Source: Candidatus Caldarchaeum subterraneum (GTDB lineage: Archaea; Thermoproteota; Nitrososphaeria_A; Caldarchaeales; Caldarchaeaceae). Taken from it: a stretch of 48,659 nucleotides of DNA. The DNA lies in NCBI GenBank assembly GCA_937934305.1, contig CALHAG010000016.1, positions 1 to 48,659 on the forward strand, in the 5' to 3' direction. The position numbers and the translations under genes were made by a program. The notes beneath the pieces were generated by a model. It worked only from the letters and a program-made list of their open reading frames with translations, did no database searches and was not told the DNA's origin. Of this stretch, positions 2,547 through 11,900 are shown one piece after another. How positions within the stretch are numbered: position 1 is the first letter of the stretch; each line of letters starts with the position of its first letter.

Positions 2547-2611
2547 CGGCAGTAGAAGTAACGGAGTAAATAATATGCTTTATAAAAAAGGGGGCAGGAT
2601 ATGTGGCTGGA
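2547..2611. promoter_or_regulatory. Divergent promoter region between lrp-family gene and lysY
   Basis: The 65-base gap holds two AT-rich TATA-like boxes in opposite orientation: 2567-2576 (for the minus-strand regulator, centre about 26 bases from its start) and 2579-2588 (for lysY, centre about 28 bases from ATG 2612). They are adjacent, so polymerase or regulator bound to one should affect the other. A G-rich run at 2589-2597 precedes the GTG 2603. I see no clear palindrome for the regulator. Confidence 0.55.
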
Positions 2612-3670
2612 ATGGTTGTCCGTGTAGGTTTAGTCGGCGGCTCCGGATACACAGGAGGAGAGCTTCTAAGAATTCTCGCGGTCCATCCAAACGTTGAAGT
2701 AACCTATGTAACATCACGGGAATATGCTGGCAAGCCCTTTACAGCAATCCATCCTCATCTCCGCGGCTTCTACAAAGGTCTCAAGTTCTCCGAAGTAAAT
2801 GTCGAAGCACTTGTCGAGAAATGTGACACAGTCTTCGTCAACACACCACACGGCGTATCCTCCACATTGACACCGCAGTTCCTTGACAGAGGCCTCCGAG
2901 TCCTCGACCTCAGCGCCGACTTCCGCTTAAGAAAGCCCGCTGACTACGAGAAGTGGTATGAGACGAAGCATCCGAGGCCCGAGCTCTTGGACAAAGCGGT
3001 TTATGGTTTGCCCGAAATATACAGAGAATTTATCAAAACAGCGTCGCTCGTCGCTTGTCCCGGCTGCAACTCTACTGCAGCGTTGATAGCTCTTGTTCCC
3101 GCCGTAGAGCAGGGGTTGATTGATTTGGAGAGGATTGTTGTTGACGTCAAGGTTGGGAGCAGTGAGGCTGGGATAAAGCCTTCGCTGGGCACCCATCATC
3201 CGGAGAGAGCTAACGTGATGAGGCCGTATGAGGCGGAGGGGCATAGGCATGTTGCCGAGGTTGAGCAGGAGCTCTCTCTGCTTGCGAAAAAGCCGGTAAA
3301 GGTAGCACTGGTTCCGCACGCCGTCGGAGCAGTACGCGGAGCACTTGCAACAGCTCATGTATGGTTCCTAAACGAGGAAACTGATGAAAACAATGTCTGG
3401 AAAGTGTATGCAAGCCGCTACGCCAAGGAGCCCTTCATAAGGATAGTTCATGGGGCGCCTTTCAGGTATCCTGACCCAAAATATGTTGTGGGCAGCAATT
3501 TTGCTGACGTGGGTTTCGCCGTGGAGAAAAGGATAGGACGCGCGGCTCTTTTCGCGGCGATTGATAACCTGATGAAGGGTGCGGCTGGGCAGGCGGTTCA
3601 GTGTTTCAACATCATGCACGGCTTCGATGAAAGAGACGGTCTCAACTATCCTCCTCTGCGCCCAGCCTAA
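2603..3670 (+). CDS. lysY: LysW-aminoadipyl/glutamyl 6-phosphate reductase (LysY/ArgC)
   Basis: NADPH-dependent reductase that turns LysW-bound aminoadipyl (and possibly glutamyl) phosphate into the semialdehyde; member of the ArgC family. Length 355 fits. The Rossmann nucleotide motif GLVGGSGYTG is at residues 9-18, the catalytic cysteine is in ACPGCNST (Cys155), and the conserved VGSSEAG and HHPERANVMRPYEAEGHRH segments with catalytic His follow. The longest frame starts at GTG 2603, but ATG 2612 is better: it lies 28 bases from a TATA box at 2579-2588, as expected for a leaderless transcript, and places the first strand (VVRVGLVGG) at the N-terminus. First gene of the lysY-lysZ pair. Because lysW and lysX are in the same cluster it is assigned to the LysW route rather than the acetylated arginine route. 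Confidence 0.9.
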   Translation: MAGMVVRVGLVGGSGYTGGELLRILAVHPNVEVTYVTSREYAGKPFTAIHPHLRGFYKGLKFSEVNVEALVEKCDTVFVNTPHGVSSTLTPQFLDRGLRVLDLSADFRLRKPADYEKWYETKHPRPELLDKAVYGLPEIYREFIKTASLVACPGCNSTAALIALVPAVEQGLIDLERIVVDVKVGSSEAGIKPSLGTHHPERANVMRPYEAEGHRHVAEVEQELSLLAKKPVKVALVPHAVGAVRGALATAHVWFLNEETDENNVWKVYASRYAKEPFIRIVHGAPFRYPDPKYVVGSNFADVGFAVEKRIGRAALFAAIDNLMKGAAGQAVQCFNIMHGFDERDGLNYPPLRPA

Positions 3671-3688: not shown

Positions 3689-4495
3689 ATGAGCTATTCC
3701 GTGATAGTTGTCAAGGCCGGTGGTAGAGCTCTCGCGTCGAACAGACAAAACATACTCCAGTCAGTCGCGCGGCATTCCTCGGATGGAGTGGTTTTCGTCC
3801 ACGGTGGGGGAGATATTGTTTCGGAGTTTGAGCGTCGGCTGGGTGTTGAGCCGAAGATAGTTGTCTCACCCTCGGGTGTGAGAAGCAGGCTCACCGACTC
3901 CGCTGAGATAGAGGTTTACACCATGGTTATGGCCGGAAAACTCGGCAAGGAGATTGCCGCCTACCTCAACAAGCTGGGCGTTAAAGCTGTAAACCTCTCG
4001 GGAGTAGATGCTTCGATCATCAAAGCCCAGAGAAAGAAGAAAATCGTGATAGTCGACGAAAGAGGACGCAAACGTGTGGTCGACGGCGGATACACGGGAA
4101 CAATCACAGAGGTCGACGCACAATTCATAAAACGTCTACTCGAGCTCGGGGTTGTGCTCGTTGTCTCACCACTCGCAATAGGGGAGGAAGGCGAATTACT
4201 CAACGTAGACGGCGACTCGGCCGCAGCCGCCATAGCAAGCAGCATACACGCAGACAAGCTGTATCTCCTCACCGATGTTGATGGGTTGCTGCTTGACGGT
4301 GAGCTGGTTAAGAGTCTAACCGCTGCACAGGCGCTTGAGATACTGGACAAAATAGGGCCGGGCATGAACCGCAAAGTGATGATGGCCGCCAGGGCCGTGC
4401 AATCAGGTGTAAAGAGGGCGCACATATGCACTGGGCTTGTCGCCGACCCTGTTGAAGCGGCTGATTTAGGCGGCGGGACGGTTATCGTCGGTTGA
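3689..4495 (+). CDS. lysZ: LysW-aminoadipate/glutamate kinase (LysZ/ArgB)
   Basis: Amino-acid kinase family enzyme that phosphorylates the side-chain carboxylate of aminoadipate (or glutamate) held on LysW. The 268 residues begin with the family's first strand and lysine (VIVVKAGGRAL), followed by the glycine-rich FVHGGGDIVSEF, the central NLSGVDASII and the C-terminal nucleotide-binding segment LLTDVDGLL, ending with GPGMNRKVMMAARAV. The start ATG 3689 is 18 bases after the lysY stop, so the two form an operon. As with lysY, dual use for lysine and arginine is likely because no second kinase is present in the window. Confidence 0.9.
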   Translation: MSYSVIVVKAGGRALASNRQNILQSVARHSSDGVVFVHGGGDIVSEFERRLGVEPKIVVSPSGVRSRLTDSAEIEVYTMVMAGKLGKEIAAYLNKLGVKAVNLSGVDASIIKAQRKKKIVIVDERGRKRVVDGGYTGTITEVDAQFIKRLLELGVVLVVSPLAIGEEGELLNVDGDSAAAAIASSIHADKLYLLTDVDGLLLDGELVKSLTAAQALEILDKIGPGMNRKVMMAARAVQSGVKRAHICTGLVADPVEAADLGGGTVIVG

Positions 4496-4615
4496 CGAAG
4501 GATGTTTAGACAATTACGATAATCGGAAAAAACCATCCGACCCACGACAAATTTCCACCACAATTATAACGATTTAAATAAGGGCGTTACGATTACGTCC
4601 CGCGAGGTAATGAGT
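4496..4615 (+). promoter_or_regulatory. Intergenic region with probable lysW promoter
   Basis: The gap between lysZ and lysW is unusually wide for this cluster. It holds a TATA-like tttaaata at 4573-4580 and a GAGGT at 4604-4608 that suits ATG 4616. A short inverted repeat (GGATG near 4500, CATCC near 4534) could be the terminator or a hairpin after lysZ. Together these suggest that lysW-lysX-lysJ form their own transcript. Confidence 0.45.
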
Positions 4616-4792
4616 ATGCCCTCTTTGAACTGTCCGGTCTGCGGAGCGTCCGTGGAGGTGCCGAACGACGCGTTGCCCGGCGAGTTGTTTGAGTGCGGGG
4701 ACTGCGGCGCCCAGCTGGAATACTTCATGGATGAAAAGAACACAGCTTCACTCAAAGTTGCTGAAGAGGTTGCGGAAGACTGGGGCCAGTAG
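4610..4792 (+). CDS. lysW: Amino-group carrier protein LysW, with a C-terminal Gln
   Basis: Small acidic carrier protein to whose C-terminal glutamate side chain the ATP-grasp ligase LysX attaches aminoadipate (or glutamate); the bound substrate is then passed through LysZ, LysY, LysJ and LysK. Two CxxC knuckles, CPVCG and CGDCG, make the zinc ribbon (residues 8-34), joined by the conserved PNDALPGELFEC segment, and an acidic tail ends in EDWG plus Gln. The last codon is CAG at 4787-4789, directly before TAG. Known LysW proteins as I recall them end in EDWGE, the Glu being the attachment point. ATG 4616 is a likely start because GAGGT at 4604-4608 is correctly spaced for it; ATG 4610 would overlap that site too closely. 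LysX follows after 3 bases. Confidence 0.93.
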   Translation: MSMPSLNCPVCGASVEVPNDALPGELFECGDCGAQLEYFMDEKNTASLKVAEEVAEDWGQ

Positions 4793-4795
4793 CGG

Positions 4796-5641
4796 ATGAA
4801 CATCGGCCTCTCCTACGACGTTGTGCGGTTTGAGGAGAAGGCTCTACTCCAGTCTATAAACAATCTCGGGCACAAACCTCTTCCCATACATGTTGTCGCG
4901 AGAGAATTTTGGATAAACGAGGGAAATGGCCTCGACGCCGACTTCATCATCCAACGCTGTGTCAGCTACAACAGGGCCGCCGCCACCACCGCCATATTTG
5001 AGAGAAGCGGCTACATAGTCGTGAACAACACCCAAGTGCTACGCAACTCAGCCGACAAACTTCTTACATCATGTCTGCTGGCCCGAAAAAACGTCCCCAC
5101 CCCCGTGACAGCGATTGCCTTAAACAGGGAAACAGCGTTGAAGGCCGCGAGGAAGATAGGGTTTCCAGTAGTTGTTAAACCTATTTCGGGAAGCTGGGGA
5201 AGAAACATCGCGAGAGCCTTCGATGAGCAGTCGCTTCTCGACATACTCGAGCTGAGGGAGAACATGCCAAATCCGCAGATGAAGATACACTACATACAGG
5301 AGCATGTCGACAAGCCCGAGAGAGATATCCGAGCCTTCTACGTATGGGGTGAAGTCCCCGTCGCAATTTACAGGGTGAGCAAAAACTGGAAAACAAACAC
5401 AGCCCTCGGCGGAAAAGCTCAGCCATGTCCCGTGACCGACGAGCTCGCAGACCTCGTCATCAAGGCAGGTGACGCCGTCGGCGGAGGAGTCCTCGGAGTA
5501 GATGTTCTCGAGTCACGGGAGAAAGGTATGCTTGTCAACGAGGTGAACGGCGTGGTCGAGTTCAGGAACACTGTACTTGTCACAGGCTATGATTTGCCGA
5601 CAAAGATAGTCGAGAAGAGTGTTGAGGTGCTGAAGCGGTGA
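4796..5641 (+). CDS. lysX: LysW--aminoadipate (glutamate) ligase LysX, ATP-grasp
   Basis: ATP-grasp ligase that joins the amino group of alpha-aminoadipate to the gamma-carboxyl of the last LysW residue using ATP; RimK-like family. The 281 residues show the family order: N-terminal alpha/beta domain, KLLTSCLLARKNVPTP linker, ATP-binding strand FPVVVKPISGSWG (around residues 124-136), RDIRAFYVWGEVPVAIYR, GGKAQPCP and the metal/ATP site LVNEVNGVVEFRN near residue 250. It starts 3 bases after lysW and overlaps lysJ by 4 bases (GTGA), so the three genes are translationally coupled. Only one such ligase is seen here; whether it accepts aminoadipate, glutamate or both cannot be read with confidence. 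The partner LysW carries Gln instead of Glu, so this enzyme may have altered chemistry or may act on a deamidated carrier. Confidence 0.92.
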   Translation: MNIGLSYDVVRFEEKALLQSINNLGHKPLPIHVVAREFWINEGNGLDADFIIQRCVSYNRAAATTAIFERSGYIVVNNTQVLRNSADKLLTSCLLARKNVPTPVTAIALNRETALKAARKIGFPVVVKPISGSWGRNIARAFDEQSLLDILELRENMPNPQMKIHYIQEHVDKPERDIRAFYVWGEVPVAIYRVSKNWKTNTALGGKAQPCPVTDELADLVIKAGDAVGGGVLGVDVLESREKGMLVNEVNGVVEFRNTVLVTGYDLPTKIVEKSVEVLKR

Positions 5642-6819
5642 CTGTTTCTCTGCTTAGGTTCGCCGCCCCCCGTGGACTGCGTGTGGCACGTGCTGAGGGG
5701 CAGTATGTGTGGGACAGCGGAGGCAGAAGATATCTCGATTTTTACATGGGATATGGTGCGGCTTTTCTCGGACACCGTCATCCACGTGTGGTGAAGGCTT
5801 TGGAGGAGCAGCTCAGCCGCTACATGACGATAACCCCAGCCTTCGACACCGACGTGCTAGATGAATGTCTTGACGCGCTTGGAAAAATCCTTCCACCCCA
5901 CCTGACACGCGTGTTTTTTCTAAACAGCGGCTCCGAAGCGGTGGAGATGGCTCTCAAGCTGAGCCGCAAGCTGACGGGCAGAAGAAAAGTGCTTGCCTTC
6001 AACAACGGTTTCCACGGCAGAACCATGGCCGCTCTCTCGGCGACTTGGAACCCGAAGTACCGAGAAGGTTTTGACCCGTTTCCGTTTGAAGTGGTTTTCG
6101 CACCATTCAACGACGCGGGAGCTGTTGAGGAGAAGCTGAGCGAGGAGTTTGCGGCGGTGATTTTTGAGCCTGTGCAAGGCGAAGGTGGCATCATCCCGGC
6201 GAAGCCAGAGTTTATGAGGGCTGTTGAGAAGAAGGCGAGGGAGCTGGGTGTGTATGTTATTGTTGACGAGGTTCAGTCTGGGTTTGGAAGAACTGGGGTT
6301 GTATGGGCCCATGAGAGGGGTGGGATTAAGCCGGATATGTTGACGGCTGCGAAAGCGGTTGCCGGGGGCTTCCCCGCGAGCCTGATAGCTGTTACGGAGG
6401 AGGTGGCCTCGAGGGTGAAGGACACGGACCATGGCTCAACCTACGGCGGCAACCCTCTCGCGCTCGCGGCCATAACCGCGGCGACACATGTTCTCCTCGA
6501 GGAAAACATCCCTGAGCAAGCCGAGGTCAAGGGAGCGATGCTGTCAGAAGAGTTCAAGCCTCTTCTACAAGACTATGGCCGGGTTTTCAGGGATCTTAGG
6601 CAGACGGGGCTGATGATAGGGCTTGAAATGCGGACGACAACCACCCAGTTTATCAAGATGCTTCAGAAAAATGGATTGATAGGGTTCAAGGCGGGTCTCA
6701 CAGTCCTCCGTTTTCTCCCACCCTACCTAATAACCCGAGAAGACATACTTTTCGCGGCTGAGACCTTGAGGAAAACCGCTGAAGAGTTTCAGCGTCTACA
6801 GCCTTCTGAGAAAAGTTGA
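5638..6819 (+). CDS. lysJ: LysW-semialdehyde aminotransferase (LysJ/ArgD)
   Basis: PLP-dependent class-III aminotransferase that converts LysW-bound aminoadipate semialdehyde to LysW-lysine (or glutamate semialdehyde to ornithine). The 393 residues contain the substrate/PLP pocket NSGSEAVEMALKLSR, the aromatic stacking motif FHGRTMAALS, the PLP-ring aspartate in VIVDEVQSGFGRTG and the Schiff-base lysine in LTAAKAVAGGFP. The GTG start overlaps the lysX stop (GTGA), so translation is coupled. The 3' end overlaps the convergent COG2403-type gene by 24 bases. Confidence 0.93.
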   Translation: MTVSLLRFAAPRGLRVARAEGQYVWDSGGRRYLDFYMGYGAAFLGHRHPRVVKALEEQLSRYMTITPAFDTDVLDECLDALGKILPPHLTRVFFLNSGSEAVEMALKLSRKLTGRRKVLAFNNGFHGRTMAALSATWNPKYREGFDPFPFEVVFAPFNDAGAVEEKLSEEFAAVIFEPVQGEGGIIPAKPEFMRAVEKKARELGVYVIVDEVQSGFGRTGVVWAHERGGIKPDMLTAAKAVAGGFPASLIAVTEEVASRVKDTDHGSTYGGNPLALAAITAATHVLLEENIPEQAEVKGAMLSEEFKPLLQDYGRVFRDLRQTGLMIGLEMRTTTTQFIKMLQKNGLIGFKAGLTVLRFLPPYLITREDILFAAETLRKTAEEFQRLQPSEKS

Positions 6820-8133
6820 CAACGGCGTGCCCGAAACCTGCTCAGCATCATACCACACCCTAACAAGAGGCTTCCCACAATCTATTAACTTGGTGAAATC
6901 GGCGGGGCTCGCGGAAACTATCATCTCTGCCTCGACTCTCCTGAGAGTTTCGCCAAGGTCTCTTAACTGCTCCTCGGTGTAGCCCAGAGCGGGAACAACC
7001 GGCCCTAGATGAGTATATTCTCGGTATAGTTTGGCTATGGTTCCGACGGCGTAGGGCCGTGGGTCGACGATTGATGCGCCCGCGTTTACGGCTGCTATGT
7101 AGCCGGCTCCCACACTCATCCCACCATGTGTGACCGACGGCGAATCCTCTACCACGACGACCCTTCGTCCTCTAAGCGATGCATCATCCTCTATACGTAT
7201 CTTGGAAGCCGTGGATACGACCTCCGCCCTAGGGTTCAAGCTTCTCACGATCTCAACTGCTTTGTCGAGCTGCTCCTTCGAAACTTTGTCAACCTTGTGC
7301 AAGACTACTACGTCGGCCATGTAGATGTTGGCCTCTCCTGGGTAGCTGTTGGTTATCAGTTCAGGCCGTGTCGCGTCTACAACGGTTATGTGGAGGTCTG
7401 GCCAGTAGAAGGGCAGGTCGTTGTTTCCACCATCCCAGACAATCACATCACCCTCTTTTTCAGCCTCCCTGAGAACCATCTCATAGTCGACGCCTGTGTA
7501 GACTATGTTGCCTTCTCGGAGATGCGGCTCAATCTCCTCCCGCTCCTCGATGCTGCATCTGTGAATTTCAAGGTCGTCTAGGCTGGAGAAACGTTGCACG
7601 ACCTGCTTCTCTAAAACGCCATATGGCATGGGGTGGCGGACGACAACGGGTTTAACACCCTTTTCCCTGAGAAGCTTGACGAGCAGCCGCGATACTGTGC
7701 TTTTCCCAGCACCGGTCTTCACAGCCGTAACCGCTACAACCTTCTTCCTTGACCTGAGCATTGTTGAGCGCGGGCCTAGAAGCATGAAGTCGCAACCCAG
7801 CGCAAGGACCTTGGAAGCCTTGTTCATCAACTCTACATGGGTAAGGTCGCTGTAGGAGAACGCAACAAGTCTGACGCCATGTCTCTCAACTATTTCTGGA
7901 AGCCTCTCTTCATCATATATGGGTATGCCGTCGGGGTAGAGTGGGCCAGAGAGTGTAGGGGGATAAACACGTCCAGCTATGCCAGGTATCTGAGCTGCCG
8001 TAAACGCCACAACCTCATATCGCTCGTTACCTCGGAAGAAGACGTTGAAGTTATGGAAATCGTGGGGCCTTCAGAGAAGGGCCCTGTCACGTCCCGCGGC
8101 TCCCATGATCACGGTTTTGACACGATCCGCCAT
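6796..8133 (-). CDS. COG2403-type P-loop protein (cyclic 2,3-diphosphoglycerate synthetase-like), reading frame interrupted by UGA
   Basis: Archaeal P-loop protein of the COG2403 group, often named as a GTPase related to cyclic 2,3-diphosphoglycerate synthetase; its true function is unsettled. The uninterrupted part runs from GTG 8010 (404 residues) with a P-loop KTGAGKST, a MAD-VV-hKVD guanine-type motif region and a strongly conserved VVEDSPSVTHGGM segment. The conserved N-terminus, however, lies upstream in the same frame: ATG 8133 begins MADRVKTVIMGAAGRD, and after a 27-base insert (8059-8085) containing TGA at 8071-8073 the frame continues FHNFNVFFRGNERYEVVAF into the GTG region. A gttaaaagg box centred about 8159, 26 bases from ATG 8133, supports that ATG as the transcript start. 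So either the stop is bypassed, or the insert is removed, or the gene is a truncated remnant. It interrupts the lysJ-lysK order on the opposite strand. Confidence 0.8.
8059..8085 (-). other. 27-base in-frame insert with UGA and hairpin inside the COG2403 gene
   Basis: Between the codons for GRD and FHNFN of the conserved motif there are nine extra codons (R A L L stop R P H D). The DNA folds into a hairpin at 8061-8091: CGTG pairs with CACG, GGGC with GCCC and CTTC with GAAG around a TCT loop, with an ACA bulge on one arm and a single C bulge; the UGA (8073-8071) begins in the loop. The insert is flanked by GAC and GAT, both Asp codons. I tested all four possible cut registers for a strict archaeal bulge-helix-bulge intron and none fits. 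Confidence 0.7.
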
Positions 8134-8216: not shown

Positions 8217-9299
8217 TTGAACGCGGTGGAAATCCACAGGGAGACAGCGGTCTCGACGCTTGTCCAGCTTCTCGAAGTTTACACACCGCCGGGGGAGGAG
8301 CGTAGGCTTGAGCGAACATGGTTCAGGGTCTGCAGCGACCTTGGTTACAGAGATTTTTGGCGGGATGAGGTGGGCAACTATTTCGCGGCCGCGGGAAGTG
8401 GCGGGAGGACGGTTATGCTGGTGAGCCACGTTGACACCGTTCCCGGGGAGCTTCGTGTCCGTGTTTCCGAGGGCAAGGTCTATGGCAGAGGCGCGGTTGA
8501 CGCCAAAGGCCCTCTCTCGGCCATGCTTCTCGCAGGAAGCGCAGCCGCATCAAAACTGAAAAACATCCGCCTCATAGTTGCCGGGCTGGTGGATGAGGAG
8601 GGCAATGGCTACGGTGCTAAGAAGCTTGTCGAAGAAGGTCTCGAAGCAGACGCTATAATCATAGGCGAGCCAACCGGGACAACTGGAATCGCCCTCTCAT
8701 ACAGAGGAAGCCTGAGCATAAAGGTGAGGGCCCAGGCACGTGGAGGCCATGCCTCAGCCCCCTACATCGCCGAATCGGCTCTCGAGAAAATTCTCCATTT
8801 ATGGAAACTTGTAGAAGAACACTATGGCGGGAAGAGGTATGAGGAGGTGACCTCCGCCCTCACAACGCTTCACGCTGGTGACTGGGTGAGCAGAATACCT
8901 GACAAAGCCGAGGGAAGCATCAACATCAGGTTCCCCCATCCATACAGCTCGAAGGAGATACTGTCAAAGCTGGAGGAGTTCGTGAAGATAGCTGACTGCC
9001 AGATAGAGGTCATCGACGTGACAGAGCCCGTGGTCACCAACGTGAACAACCTTGCTGCGAGAGCGCTTCAGAGGGCTATGCTCAGGCTGGGGCTGAAGCC
9101 GCGCATCGTGAAGAAAACTGGGACAAGCGACATGAACACACTCGTAGCCGTGACACCCAACATCGTTGCATGCGGACCCGGCGACTCAACCCTAGCCCAC
9201 ACATCCGCCGAAGCAGTCGAAATAAAAGACATCATGACAGCGGCCCAGATATATGTGGAGTTCGTCAGAGAGATGGACTCAGCTCAGCAATCTCTTTAA
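8217..9299 (+). CDS. lysK: LysW-lysine/ornithine hydrolase LysK (M20 peptidase)
   Basis: Metallopeptidase of the M20/ArgE family that releases lysine (or ornithine) from LysW. The 360 residues carry the first zinc ligand in LVSHVDTVPG, the bridging Asp in GRGAVDAKGP, the catalytic Glu pair in GLVDEEGNG, a further ligand in GEPTG, the dimerisation-domain His in ARGGHASAP and the last His in STLAHTSAEAVE. TTG 8217 gives the longest frame, preceded by AAAGGA at 8211-8216; GTG 8226 is possible. It has its own promoter region (ttaata near 8177-8182), separate from lysW-lysX-lysJ. Its stop overlaps the 3' end of the convergent argH by 21 bases. Confidence 0.9.
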   Translation: MNAVEIHRETAVSTLVQLLEVYTPPGEERRLERTWFRVCSDLGYRDFWRDEVGNYFAAAGSGGRTVMLVSHVDTVPGELRVRVSEGKVYGRGAVDAKGPLSAMLLAGSAAASKLKNIRLIVAGLVDEEGNGYGAKKLVEEGLEADAIIIGEPTGTTGIALSYRGSLSIKVRAQARGGHASAPYIAESALEKILHLWKLVEEHYGGKRYEEVTSALTTLHAGDWVSRIPDKAEGSINIRFPHPYSSKEILSKLEEFVKIADCQIEVIDVTEPVVTNVNNLAARALQRAMLRLGLKPRIVKKTGTSDMNTLVAVTPNIVACGPGDSTLAHTSAEAVEIKDIMTAAQIYVEFVREMDSAQQSL

Positions 9300-10712
9300 A
9301 CAATCTTCGAGAACACGCCGCTCCACTTCTACACGGTTTCTAATCTCCTCAACCGTTTTGAGGAGCTTTTCAACGTTCTCGGAGACCATGGTTGGGTTTG
9401 CCGAGCCAGGTGCCGTGTAGCGTTTAACGGCGGCGTCTGGGTTCATCAGAGAAAGAACTTCCCCGATTGCGTATAGTGGTTTTAGCCCATGCTCTTGGAA
9501 GATTGTGTCGAGCCTCTCCTGTGTGAGGTTTTGTTCGGCGATGCTTCGGCTGATTTTCGCCGCTATCTGATGTGCTTTCCTGAAGCCTATTCCATGTTTC
9601 AGGGTTAGGTGGTTTGCGAGCTCGACTGCGGCCGTGGGAGGGGCGCAGGCCTCCCAGGCCTTCTCCCTGTTAACCTCAATTTTCTCCACGAGTTTTCTCA
9701 TCATATGGAGGCTTTCAGAAACCTCTCTAAAAGCCTGCCAAACCTTCGGAGTCACCTGCTGTAGGTCAAGGTTGTAGCCGCTCGGCTGCCGCGACAAAAT
9801 CCCCGAAACCGTGGCGAGAAGCCCCAGCACCTCCGAGGCCTTTGTCCTCATTATCTCGGCTACGACGGGGTTTCTCTTCTGCGGCATGATGCTGCTGGTG
9901 GCGGCGAGCTCCTCAGGTATCTGGATGAGGCCGAACTCCTCCGACGCGTAGAGAACAATCTCCTCAGCGAATGAGGATAGAACCAAGGCTGTGACATGTA
10001 GAGGAGACAGAACTAGGGTAAGAAATTCGCGGGAAGCCGTGGCCTCAAGGGCGTTCAAGCTCGTTCTCCTAAACCCGAGGAGCTGAGCTATGTATTCGCG
10101 GTCCACGGGCACGGATGTTCCCGCAACAGCCGCGGAGCCGAGGGGAGACTCCTCACATGCCTCAAGCATGGTGAGAAGTGAGTTGCAGCACCTCAGTAGG
10201 CGGATTGCATAGGACTGTAAAACAAACCCGAACGTAGCGGGAGCGGCTCTCTGGAGATGGGTGTAAACAGGGAAAACCGTGGCCGCATGCTCGCCGCTTT
10301 TCCTCACAAGCGATTCAACAGCATCGAGCGCCATATCAGCGATTTTGTATGCTCTACGTCTCACCTCGATTTTCACGGCCGCGACGACCGCGTCATTCCT
10401 GCTTTTGCCGAGAGCGAGCATCTCAGCGGCCTCGGGTGCTTTTTCGGAAAGAAGTTGCTCGAGATAGATGTGGATATCCTCTACTGTGGGTGGTGGTGTT
10501 TGCCGAGTTTGGAGAAGATGTCTCAGGGTTGTGAGAGCCTTTTCCGCCGACTCCCTGTTTAGGAGGCCTTGTTTCTCGAGCATTTTGATGTGGGCCGCGT
10601 TGACGTAAACCGTGGTCTCGTAAATTTCTGTGTCGAATGCCGCGGATGATGTGTAGCGTGCCGCGTCCTCATCCATCCCTCGCGATAACGCCGCTCTATG
10701 TGGCGCATCCAT
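9279..10712 (-). CDS. argH: Argininosuccinate lyase
   Basis: Last step of arginine synthesis: cleaves argininosuccinate to arginine and fumarate. The 477-residue length fits. It shows the fumarase/aspartase-superfamily signature SSIMPQKRNP with the mobile catalytic-serine loop, the AGTSVPVDRE region, and TVFPVYTHLQRA with the His of the active site. The start ATG 10712 is 3 bases after the argG stop, so argG-argH are one operon. Being beside the lysXWZYJK genes, it supports the view that the LysW route also feeds ornithine to arginine here. Confidence 0.95.
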   Translation of the reverse strand: MDAPHRAALSRGMDEDAARYTSSAAFDTEIYETTVYVNAAHIKMLEKQGLLNRESAEKALTTLRHLLQTRQTPPPTVEDIHIYLEQLLSEKAPEAAEMLALGKSRNDAVVAAVKIEVRRRAYKIADMALDAVESLVRKSGEHAATVFPVYTHLQRAAPATFGFVLQSYAIRLLRCCNSLLTMLEACEESPLGSAAVAGTSVPVDREYIAQLLGFRRTSLNALEATASREFLTLVLSPLHVTALVLSSFAEEIVLYASEEFGLIQIPEELAATSSIMPQKRNPVVAEIMRTKASEVLGLLATVSGILSRQPSGYNLDLQQVTPKVWQAFREVSESLHMMRKLVEKIEVNREKAWEACAPPTAAVELANHLTLKHGIGFRKAHQIAAKISRSIAEQNLTQERLDTIFQEHGLKPLYAIGEVLSLMNPDAAVKRYTAPGSANPTMVSENVEKLLKTVEEIRNRVEVERRVLEDCLKRLLS

Positions 10713-10715
10713 CAG

Positions 10716-11900
10716 CTACTCCTTCTCCCTCAGACTGCTAAGCCGTGTCTCGAGGCTCCACAGCTTTGAAAAGCCTTCACCAGCCCTCTGGTCAAAAACA
10801 CTCTCACGAGCATAGGTGATGTATTTTGGCGAGTAGAGCGGCTTCTCTCCACGCCGACCAACTACCCGCAGCGAGCCTTTGTAAAGCCTTAGACGCACCT
10901 CCCCATCCAACCCCTTCTGCGACTCGTCGATAAACGCGTCAAGAGCCTTTCGCAGCGGGTCCATCCATAGACCCGAGTAGACAAGATCCGCCCAAAGGTT
11001 ATCCACCTGCTGCTTGAATGCTTGGAACCGTCTCCCAAGAAACATCTTCTCAAGATCCATGTGCGCGTTGATTAGGATGAGGGCCGCGGGGACCTCGTAA
11101 ACCTCTCGGGACTTTAGGCCAACGACGCGGTCCTCTACATGGTCGACCAACCCGTAGCCATGCATCCCTCCCAACACATTCAGCATTCTAACAAGTGTCA
11201 CGAGATCTTTTCTGTCGCCGTTGATGTATTCGGGGACACCGTTTCTGAAGCCTATGGTGAATTCCTCGGGCTTGTCAGGTGTTTGGTCGAGGGGTTTAAC
11301 GAGTTTGAAAGCCTCGGTTGGCGGCTCCGTCCATGGGTCTTCGAGTTCAGCGGCCTCTATAGAGCGGCCCCAGAGGTTCTCATCTATGCTGAAGCGGCTT
11401 TTGACAGGGTTGACGGGAAGGTTGTGCTCCAGTGCATACTCGATCTCCTCATCTCTGCTCATATTCCACTCTCTTACAGGAGCGATTATCTTGAGGTCCG
11501 GTGCAACGGCTGCGAAGGTCGCGTCAAACCGCAGCTGGTCGTTCCCTTTCCCCGTGCATCCATGGGCAACCGCGTCACATCCCTCCTTCAAAGCAACCTT
11601 CGCAGTCTCTTCGGCTATCAAAGGCCTGCTCAAAGCAGATGAAAGAGGATAGCTCCTTTCATACATCGCGTTCGCCTTAATCGCCCGTGAAAGAAACTCG
11701 TCGGCAAATTTTTTCTTCGCATCTATGCTGTAGTGCTTGACGGCGCCGCTTTTGTAAGCCTTCTCCTCTATTTCGGAAAAATCCTCATCCTGTCCAACGT
11801 CGACTGTAACTGTCACCACCTCGGCGTTGTATCTCTGGCTTATCCACTTAATCATCACAGTTGTGTCAAGTCCACCGCTGTAAGCTAACGCCACCTTCAT
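10716..11900 (-). CDS. argG: Argininosuccinate synthase
   Basis: ATP-dependent ligase that makes argininosuccinate from citrulline and aspartate. The 394 residues start with the PP-loop ATP site AYSGGLDTTVMIKW, followed by the conserved HGCTGKGNDQLRF (citrulline/aspartate site) and the SRFSIDENLWGRSIE segment. The ATG at 11900 directly precedes the first strand. It is the promoter-proximal gene of the argG-argH pair and starts 32 bases after the stop of the hypothetical at 11933-12343, so all five minus-strand genes from 13428 down may belong to one transcript. Confidence 0.96.
   Translation of the reverse strand: MKVALAYSGGLDTTVMIKWISQRYNAEVVTVTVDVGQDEDFSEIEEKAYKSGAVKHYSIDAKKKFADEFLSRAIKANAMYERSYPLSSALSRPLIAEETAKVALKEGCDAVAHGCTGKGNDQLRFDATFAAVAPDLKIIAPVREWNMSRDEEIEYALEHNLPVNPVKSRFSIDENLWGRSIEAAELEDPWTEPPTEAFKLVKPLDQTPDKPEEFTIGFRNGVPEYINGDRKDLVTLVRMLNVLGGMHGYGLVDHVEDRVVGLKSREVYEVPAALILINAHMDLEKMFLGRRFQAFKQQVDNLWADLVYSGLWMDPLRKALDAFIDESQKGLDGEVRLRLYKGSLRVVGRRGEKPLYSPKYITYARESVFDQRAGEGFSKLWSLETRLSSLREKE

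Follow-up and report, generated by a model that had tools for sequence, protein, structure and literature searches.

LysW is described as an amino-group carrier protein with an indispensable C-terminal Glu. The gamma linkage of the substrate to this residue is established for the LysW proteins of Thermus, Sulfolobus and Thermococcus, the GSWGR motif of the ligase LysX is reported to recognise the EDWGE tail, and a haloarchaeal argW(E54A) mutant is an arginine auxotroph, which makes the terminal Glu essential (PMC10433800). In Sulfolobus, one LysW is common to ArgX and LysX (PMC10433800). All the solved LysW structures that we found end in EDWGE, as do the two bacterial plasmid copies examined, one from a Deinococcus and one from a Streptomyces. 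A C-terminal Gln is known from Pup: some species encode Gln and others Glu, and Dop deamidates the Gln form by activating the PupQ amide oxygen with ATP (PMC8599861).

The window analysed here, a stretch of 48,659 nucleotides from Candidatus Caldarchaeum subterraneum, harbours a lysW gene (Table 1) that translates as MSMPSLNCPVCGASVEVPNDALPGELFECGDCGAQLEYFMDEKNTASLKVAEEVAEDWGQ. Its 3' end reads GAA GAC TGG GGC CAG TAG, giving a protein tail EDWGQ. The initial annotation had pointed out this terminal Gln in place of Glu, as well as the coupled order of lysX and lysJ after lysW; both observations hold, and lysY and lysZ lie upstream. The protein scores 79.8 bits against NCBIfam NF041070 (cut-off 75) and 53.9 against Pfam PF21344 (cut-off 27), and 38 against TIGR01206, under the cut-off of 53.2. 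The four metal ligands of the zinc ribbon are present as CPVC and CGDC pairs, and lysX, lysY, lysZ, lysJ and lysK are all found in the window, as in LysW/ArgW operons. The encoded terminal residue is Gln, not the Glu that bears the substrate in LysW and ArgW. As encoded, the protein is thus a homologue and a variant of LysW rather than a standard member, unless its mature form is Glu-ended.

Table 1. Features of the lysW locus in the window.
Feature	Position	Strand	Evidence
lysY, reductase (ArgC-type)	2603..3670	+	TIGR01850, 427 bits, over cut-off
lysZ, [LysW]-aminoadipate/glutamate kinase	3689..4495	+	NF010662, 315 bits, over cut-off
lysW, amino-group carrier protein, Gln-ended	4610..4792	+	NF041070, PF21344
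CAG, C-terminal Gln codon replacing Glu	4787..4789	+	sequence; common to G002, G003, G005 and others
lysX, ATP-grasp ligase loading LysW	4796..5641	+	TIGR02144, 325.5 bits, over cut-off
GSWGR motif of LysX, EDWGE-tail recognition	5189..5203	+	motif check; role from PMC10433800
lysJ, [LysW]-aminoadipate/glutamate semialdehyde transaminase	5638..6819	+	NF045491, TIGR00707
404 aa P-loop protein between lysJ and lysK	6796..8010	-	CobW match weak
lysK, M20 hydrolase releasing Lys/Orn from LysW; proposed LysW(Gln) deamidase	8217..9299	+	best named matches PRK00466, TIGR01902; PDB 5xoy
argH	9279..10712	-	by-eye assignment from translation; syntenic homologue in G002, 84%
argG	10716..11900	-	by-eye assignment from translation; syntenic homologue in G002, 98%

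No second LysW was found in the 97%-complete genome to which the window belongs (G000), which rules out rescue of the pathway by another carrier. Two LysX-family ligases are encoded there, the window copy and one on contig C5, and ArgJ was looked for and not found. Because two ligases accompany a single LysW and ArgJ is missing, lysine and arginine biosynthesis should both depend on the sole, Gln-ended carrier, as in Sulfolobus. The P-loop protein encoded between lysJ and lysK is kept at the same place in G002 (88%) and HR01 (52%).

We compared this LysW with those of close relatives, as proposed in the initial annotation. The Gln end is shared by three Caldarchaeum species, among them G002 (a single contig) and G003, as well as by HR01 (G005), from the same family, at identities to the window protein of 90%, 84% and 69-71%, respectively. 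In G002 and G003, GGC CAG also precedes the stop, and the stop codons and LysW sequences differ. In the sister genus g2 (Pelearchaeum), LysW ends in Glu.

To survey the phylum, 398 of its genomes were searched with the DNA pattern [DE][DE]WG(E/Q)-stop and then with the Gln form alone. The latter matched in 91 genomes, about 85 of which were kept after removal of chance matches (G072, G275), of genomes with TGG in place of the stop (G061, G154, G366) and of the unchecked G094; one further chance match occurs in G226. For 27 of these ~85 genomes full LysW proteins were read, the others resting on the DNA pattern. Family names such as Nitrosopumilaceae-like were deduced from gene content and annotation. 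Among the LysW proteins read, the last position is occupied by Glu or Gln and nothing else. On a tree of the adjacent LysX ligases, Glu/Gln changes number 9, at least 5 of them forced by starred branches. In genus g9 of family f4, the same gene order surrounds a Gln-ended LysW in G027 and G033 and a Glu-ended one in G021, G023 and G034; G055 and G266 are likewise close relatives that differ in having Gln and Glu at the same locus. Since close relatives differ in this manner, Glu and Gln are, judging from the sequences, interchangeable at the LysW terminus.

Retention of Gln is seen in f7, a family of 62 genomes that looks like Nitrosopumilaceae, 61 of which have at least two pattern matches. 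We analysed in detail five two-match genomes with a Gln-ended carrier, plus G266. An arginine-side cluster, argG-lysW(E)-argX-lysY-lysZ-lysJ-lrp, is found together with a lysine-side cluster made of a homocitrate-synthase-like gene, lysW(Q), lysX, lysK and the diphthine synthase gene, the two being ~5.8 kb apart where the carriers lie together. The lysine-side LysW ends in Gln in 61 of the 62 genomes, the sole exception being G266, with Glu at the same place. Among the 61 Gln copies, the Gly just before Gln is encoded by GGA (31), GGG (14), GGC (13) or GGT (3), and Asp, too, is encoded variably. Because CAG is invariant while its neighbours vary, it is the amino acid Gln that has been retained, and across a deep family. 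The overlapping GTG start of lysX (GTGA overlap) fixes the last base of CAG, but the first base is free. We rejected the idea that this overlap forces CAG, as GAG overlaps equally well in G266 and the window lysW stop does not overlap the lysX start.

Other families combine the two types of carriers differently. In f41, the arginine-side carrier ends in Glu and the lysine-side one in Gln. In f45 (Nitrososphaeraceae-like), G282 has one Glu- and one Gln-ended carrier, G236 and G389 each have two carriers, both Gln-ended, and G226, G325 and G353 have one Gln-ended carrier and two ligases. The loci of the latter three (L088, L094, L095) belong to one Nitrosocosmicus-like genus, which has lost the argG-linked carrier and kept both ligases; arginine biosynthesis, too, appears to rely on its lysine-side Gln carrier. 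Gln as a tag that separates lysine from arginine carriers was therefore rejected as a general rule, because Gln is found on both carriers in G115, G236 and G389 and a single carrier is shared in G226, G325 and G353.

Several loci deserve separate mention. The second carrier of G115 (L097:7433-7606, f7) is Gln-ended, unlike those of its family, with no adjacent ligase on a short contig. L067:4811-11612 and L068 harbour two full carrier-ligase pairs in one neighbourhood, one argG-linked (Glu) and the other linked to homocitrate synthase and lysK (Gln), an indication that arginine and lysine have separate carriers in that family. A Glu-ended LysW of G310 (L075:6880-7047) adjoins neither a ligase nor an arginine gene, and the Gln-ended copy of this genome keeps lysX-lysK. 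Finally, in f5 and f26 (L047:1297-2782, L043, L058, L065) a Glu-ended LysW adjoins a RimK/LysX-like protein of 392-393 aa, followed by lysY. With 78.8 bits against a LysX cut-off of 275.6, this protein is a divergent ligase replacing canonical LysX.

The partners of the Gln- and Glu-ended carriers are alike. All 23 canonical Glu partners have GSWGR, as do 27 of the 28 Gln partners; the remaining one has GSHGR. No LysX position cleanly separates Gln from Glu partners, the best-scoring columns being noisy, and specialisation of the ligase for Gln carriers was rejected for lack of a clean covarying site. Similarly, no LysK position cleanly tracks the type of carrier, and LysK specialisation was rejected on the same grounds. 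These comparisons thus do not single LysK out as a deamidase. The window LysK aligns over 331 residues with the solved Thermus LysK (5xoy; 6e-40), with conserved M20 residues H71, D73, D95, E127, E128 and H328. LysK is present in all 30 genomes tested, with its catalytic residues in every Gln genome among them; Glu genomes have LysK too. Seven genomes with a Gln-ended carrier (G055, G115, G138, G226, G236, G325 and G389) have no M20 match other than LysK.

We propose that the product of the window lysW is a pro-carrier, to be loaded once its C-terminal Gln has been deamidated to Glu, and assign to this a probability of about 0.6. LysW would be translated with its Gln, hydrolysis of the side-chain amide to Glu would yield the competent carrier, and LysX and the second LysX-family ligase would then load the gamma-carboxyl with aminoadipate or glutamate. 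LysK hydrolyses the gamma-glutamyl amide at the terminal residue of LysW, freeing lysine or ornithine. It would be the most likely deamidase, because hydrolysis of the Gln side chain breaks the same bond and releases ammonia instead. Removal of ammonia would be a small step, because LysK already hydrolyses an amide on the same gamma-carboxyl. If deamidation takes place, we tentatively favour LysK for it, at somewhat less than even odds. Its presence would be necessary, not sufficient, for this role, and the absence of a dedicated gene beside the Gln carriers weakly favours it. With LysK as the deamidase, a lineage could switch from Glu to Gln without a new gene. We know of no advantage of encoding Gln.

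Known deamidases were searched for in 30 genomes. The initial annotation had likened the Gln end to that of Pup and proposed to look for a Dop-like gene. The likeness stands as regards the interchange of Glu and Gln, the unchanged ligase and the restriction of the terminus to these two residues; it fails with Dop, as no Dop/PafA homologue (PF03136) was detected in any of the 30 genomes, with a positive control in Corynebacterium glutamicum. Dop/PafA was thus rejected as the deamidase. So was the protein-glutamine deamidase CheD, found in 4 of the 30 genomes and missing from most Gln genomes, including that of the window.

A different chemistry would dispense with maturation altogether. The ligase might attach the substrate at the main-chain alpha-carboxyl of the last residue, in the way that RimK modifies ribosomal protein S6; LysX is indeed one of the RimK-type alpha-L-glutamate ligases (TIGR00768), and interchangeability of Glu and Gln would come automatically. 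We nevertheless consider this unlikely, given the gamma linkage established in Thermus, Sulfolobus and Thermococcus and the loss of function caused by E54A (PMC10433800). In addition, Gln and Glu partners agree in GSWGR and in other conserved ligase residues, and alpha linkage would not require a terminus restricted to Glu and Gln, yet the carriers read always have one or the other.

Alternatively, a minor pool of Glu-ended LysW might form without any dedicated step and suffice because the carrier is recycled. Such a pool could arise by spontaneous deamidation or by mis-incorporation of Glu from Glu-tRNA(Gln), which is allowed by the indirect route by which archaea make Gln-tRNA. The carrier acts catalytically, and the relatives of Caldarchaeum are thermophilic, with chemical deamidation being faster in heat. 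However, C-terminal Gln deamidates very slowly, and its retention in 61 of the 62 f7 genomes is unlike a tolerated defect. Moreover, Gln is the only form in a mesophilic, Nitrosocosmicus-like genus: N. exaquare, cultivated as an enrichment in mineral medium with ammonium, has its optimum at 33 C, and organic carbon stimulates its growth (PMC5398378). We therefore regard a minor pool as a quite improbable explanation.

The ligase itself could take the amide, through hydrolysis or through its replacement by the substrate amine. The ATP activation of the PupQ amide by Dop makes ATP-driven amide chemistry conceivable (PMC8599861), but Dop is not an ATP-grasp enzyme and no active-site change is seen consistently among the LysX proteins paired with Gln carriers, and we hold this mechanism to be very improbable. 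As for the read error or isolated GAG-to-CAG change that the initial annotation had kept as the simplest alternative, or a decayed, non-functional carrier, GAG and CAG are indeed one base apart, but Gln recurs and is conserved in independent genomes through different codons (CAG, CAA), some of them without any other carrier, and the zinc ribbon, operon and remaining tail are all intact, leaving this explanation a negligible likelihood.

Deamidation of an encoded Gln thus remains our preferred reading, and maturation of LysW from Gln to Glu appears undescribed so far. Neither EDWGQ nor LysW deamidation was found in the open-access literature to which the search was confined; an earlier notice might exist elsewhere. 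A Nitrosopumilus metabolic model mentions one LysW gene, in passages that do not discuss its terminus. A large archaeal group, apparently including abundant ammonia oxidisers, encodes no Glu on its lysine carrier, which in some members is the sole carrier. Deamidation, if correct, would add to the pathway a maturation step that has not been described, and would be a second case, unrelated to the first, of a Gln cap in the style of Pup; if it is wrong, the linkage chemistry departs from the textbook. A broader proposal, which we deem possible albeit doubtful, is that much of the class to which the ammonia oxidisers belong makes lysine, and locally arginine, on a Gln-capped pro-carrier, with LysK both uncapping the carrier and releasing the product, in convergence with PupQ and Dop.

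The closest described systems are the LysW/ArgW proteins of Thermus, Sulfolobus, Thermococcus and Natrinema, with which the window LysW shares the zinc ribbon, the EDWG tail, an adjacent LysX and the downstream enzymes. Every solved LysW that we found ends in the substrate-bearing Glu, whereas the window gene encodes Gln. Its LysK is homologous to that of Thermus (5xoy), with conserved catalytic residues, and deamidation of LysW(Gln) is a newly proposed role for it. As in the Pup/Dop system, the C-terminal Gln of a small protein would have to become Glu before ligation through the gamma-carboxyl, and one enzyme, Dop or putatively LysK, could both deamidate the protein and cleave its conjugate. 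The two systems differ in that the carrier proteins and their functions are unrelated, the ligase is an ATP-grasp enzyme (LysX) rather than a glutamine-synthetase-like one, and LysK is an M20 metallohydrolase unrelated to Dop.
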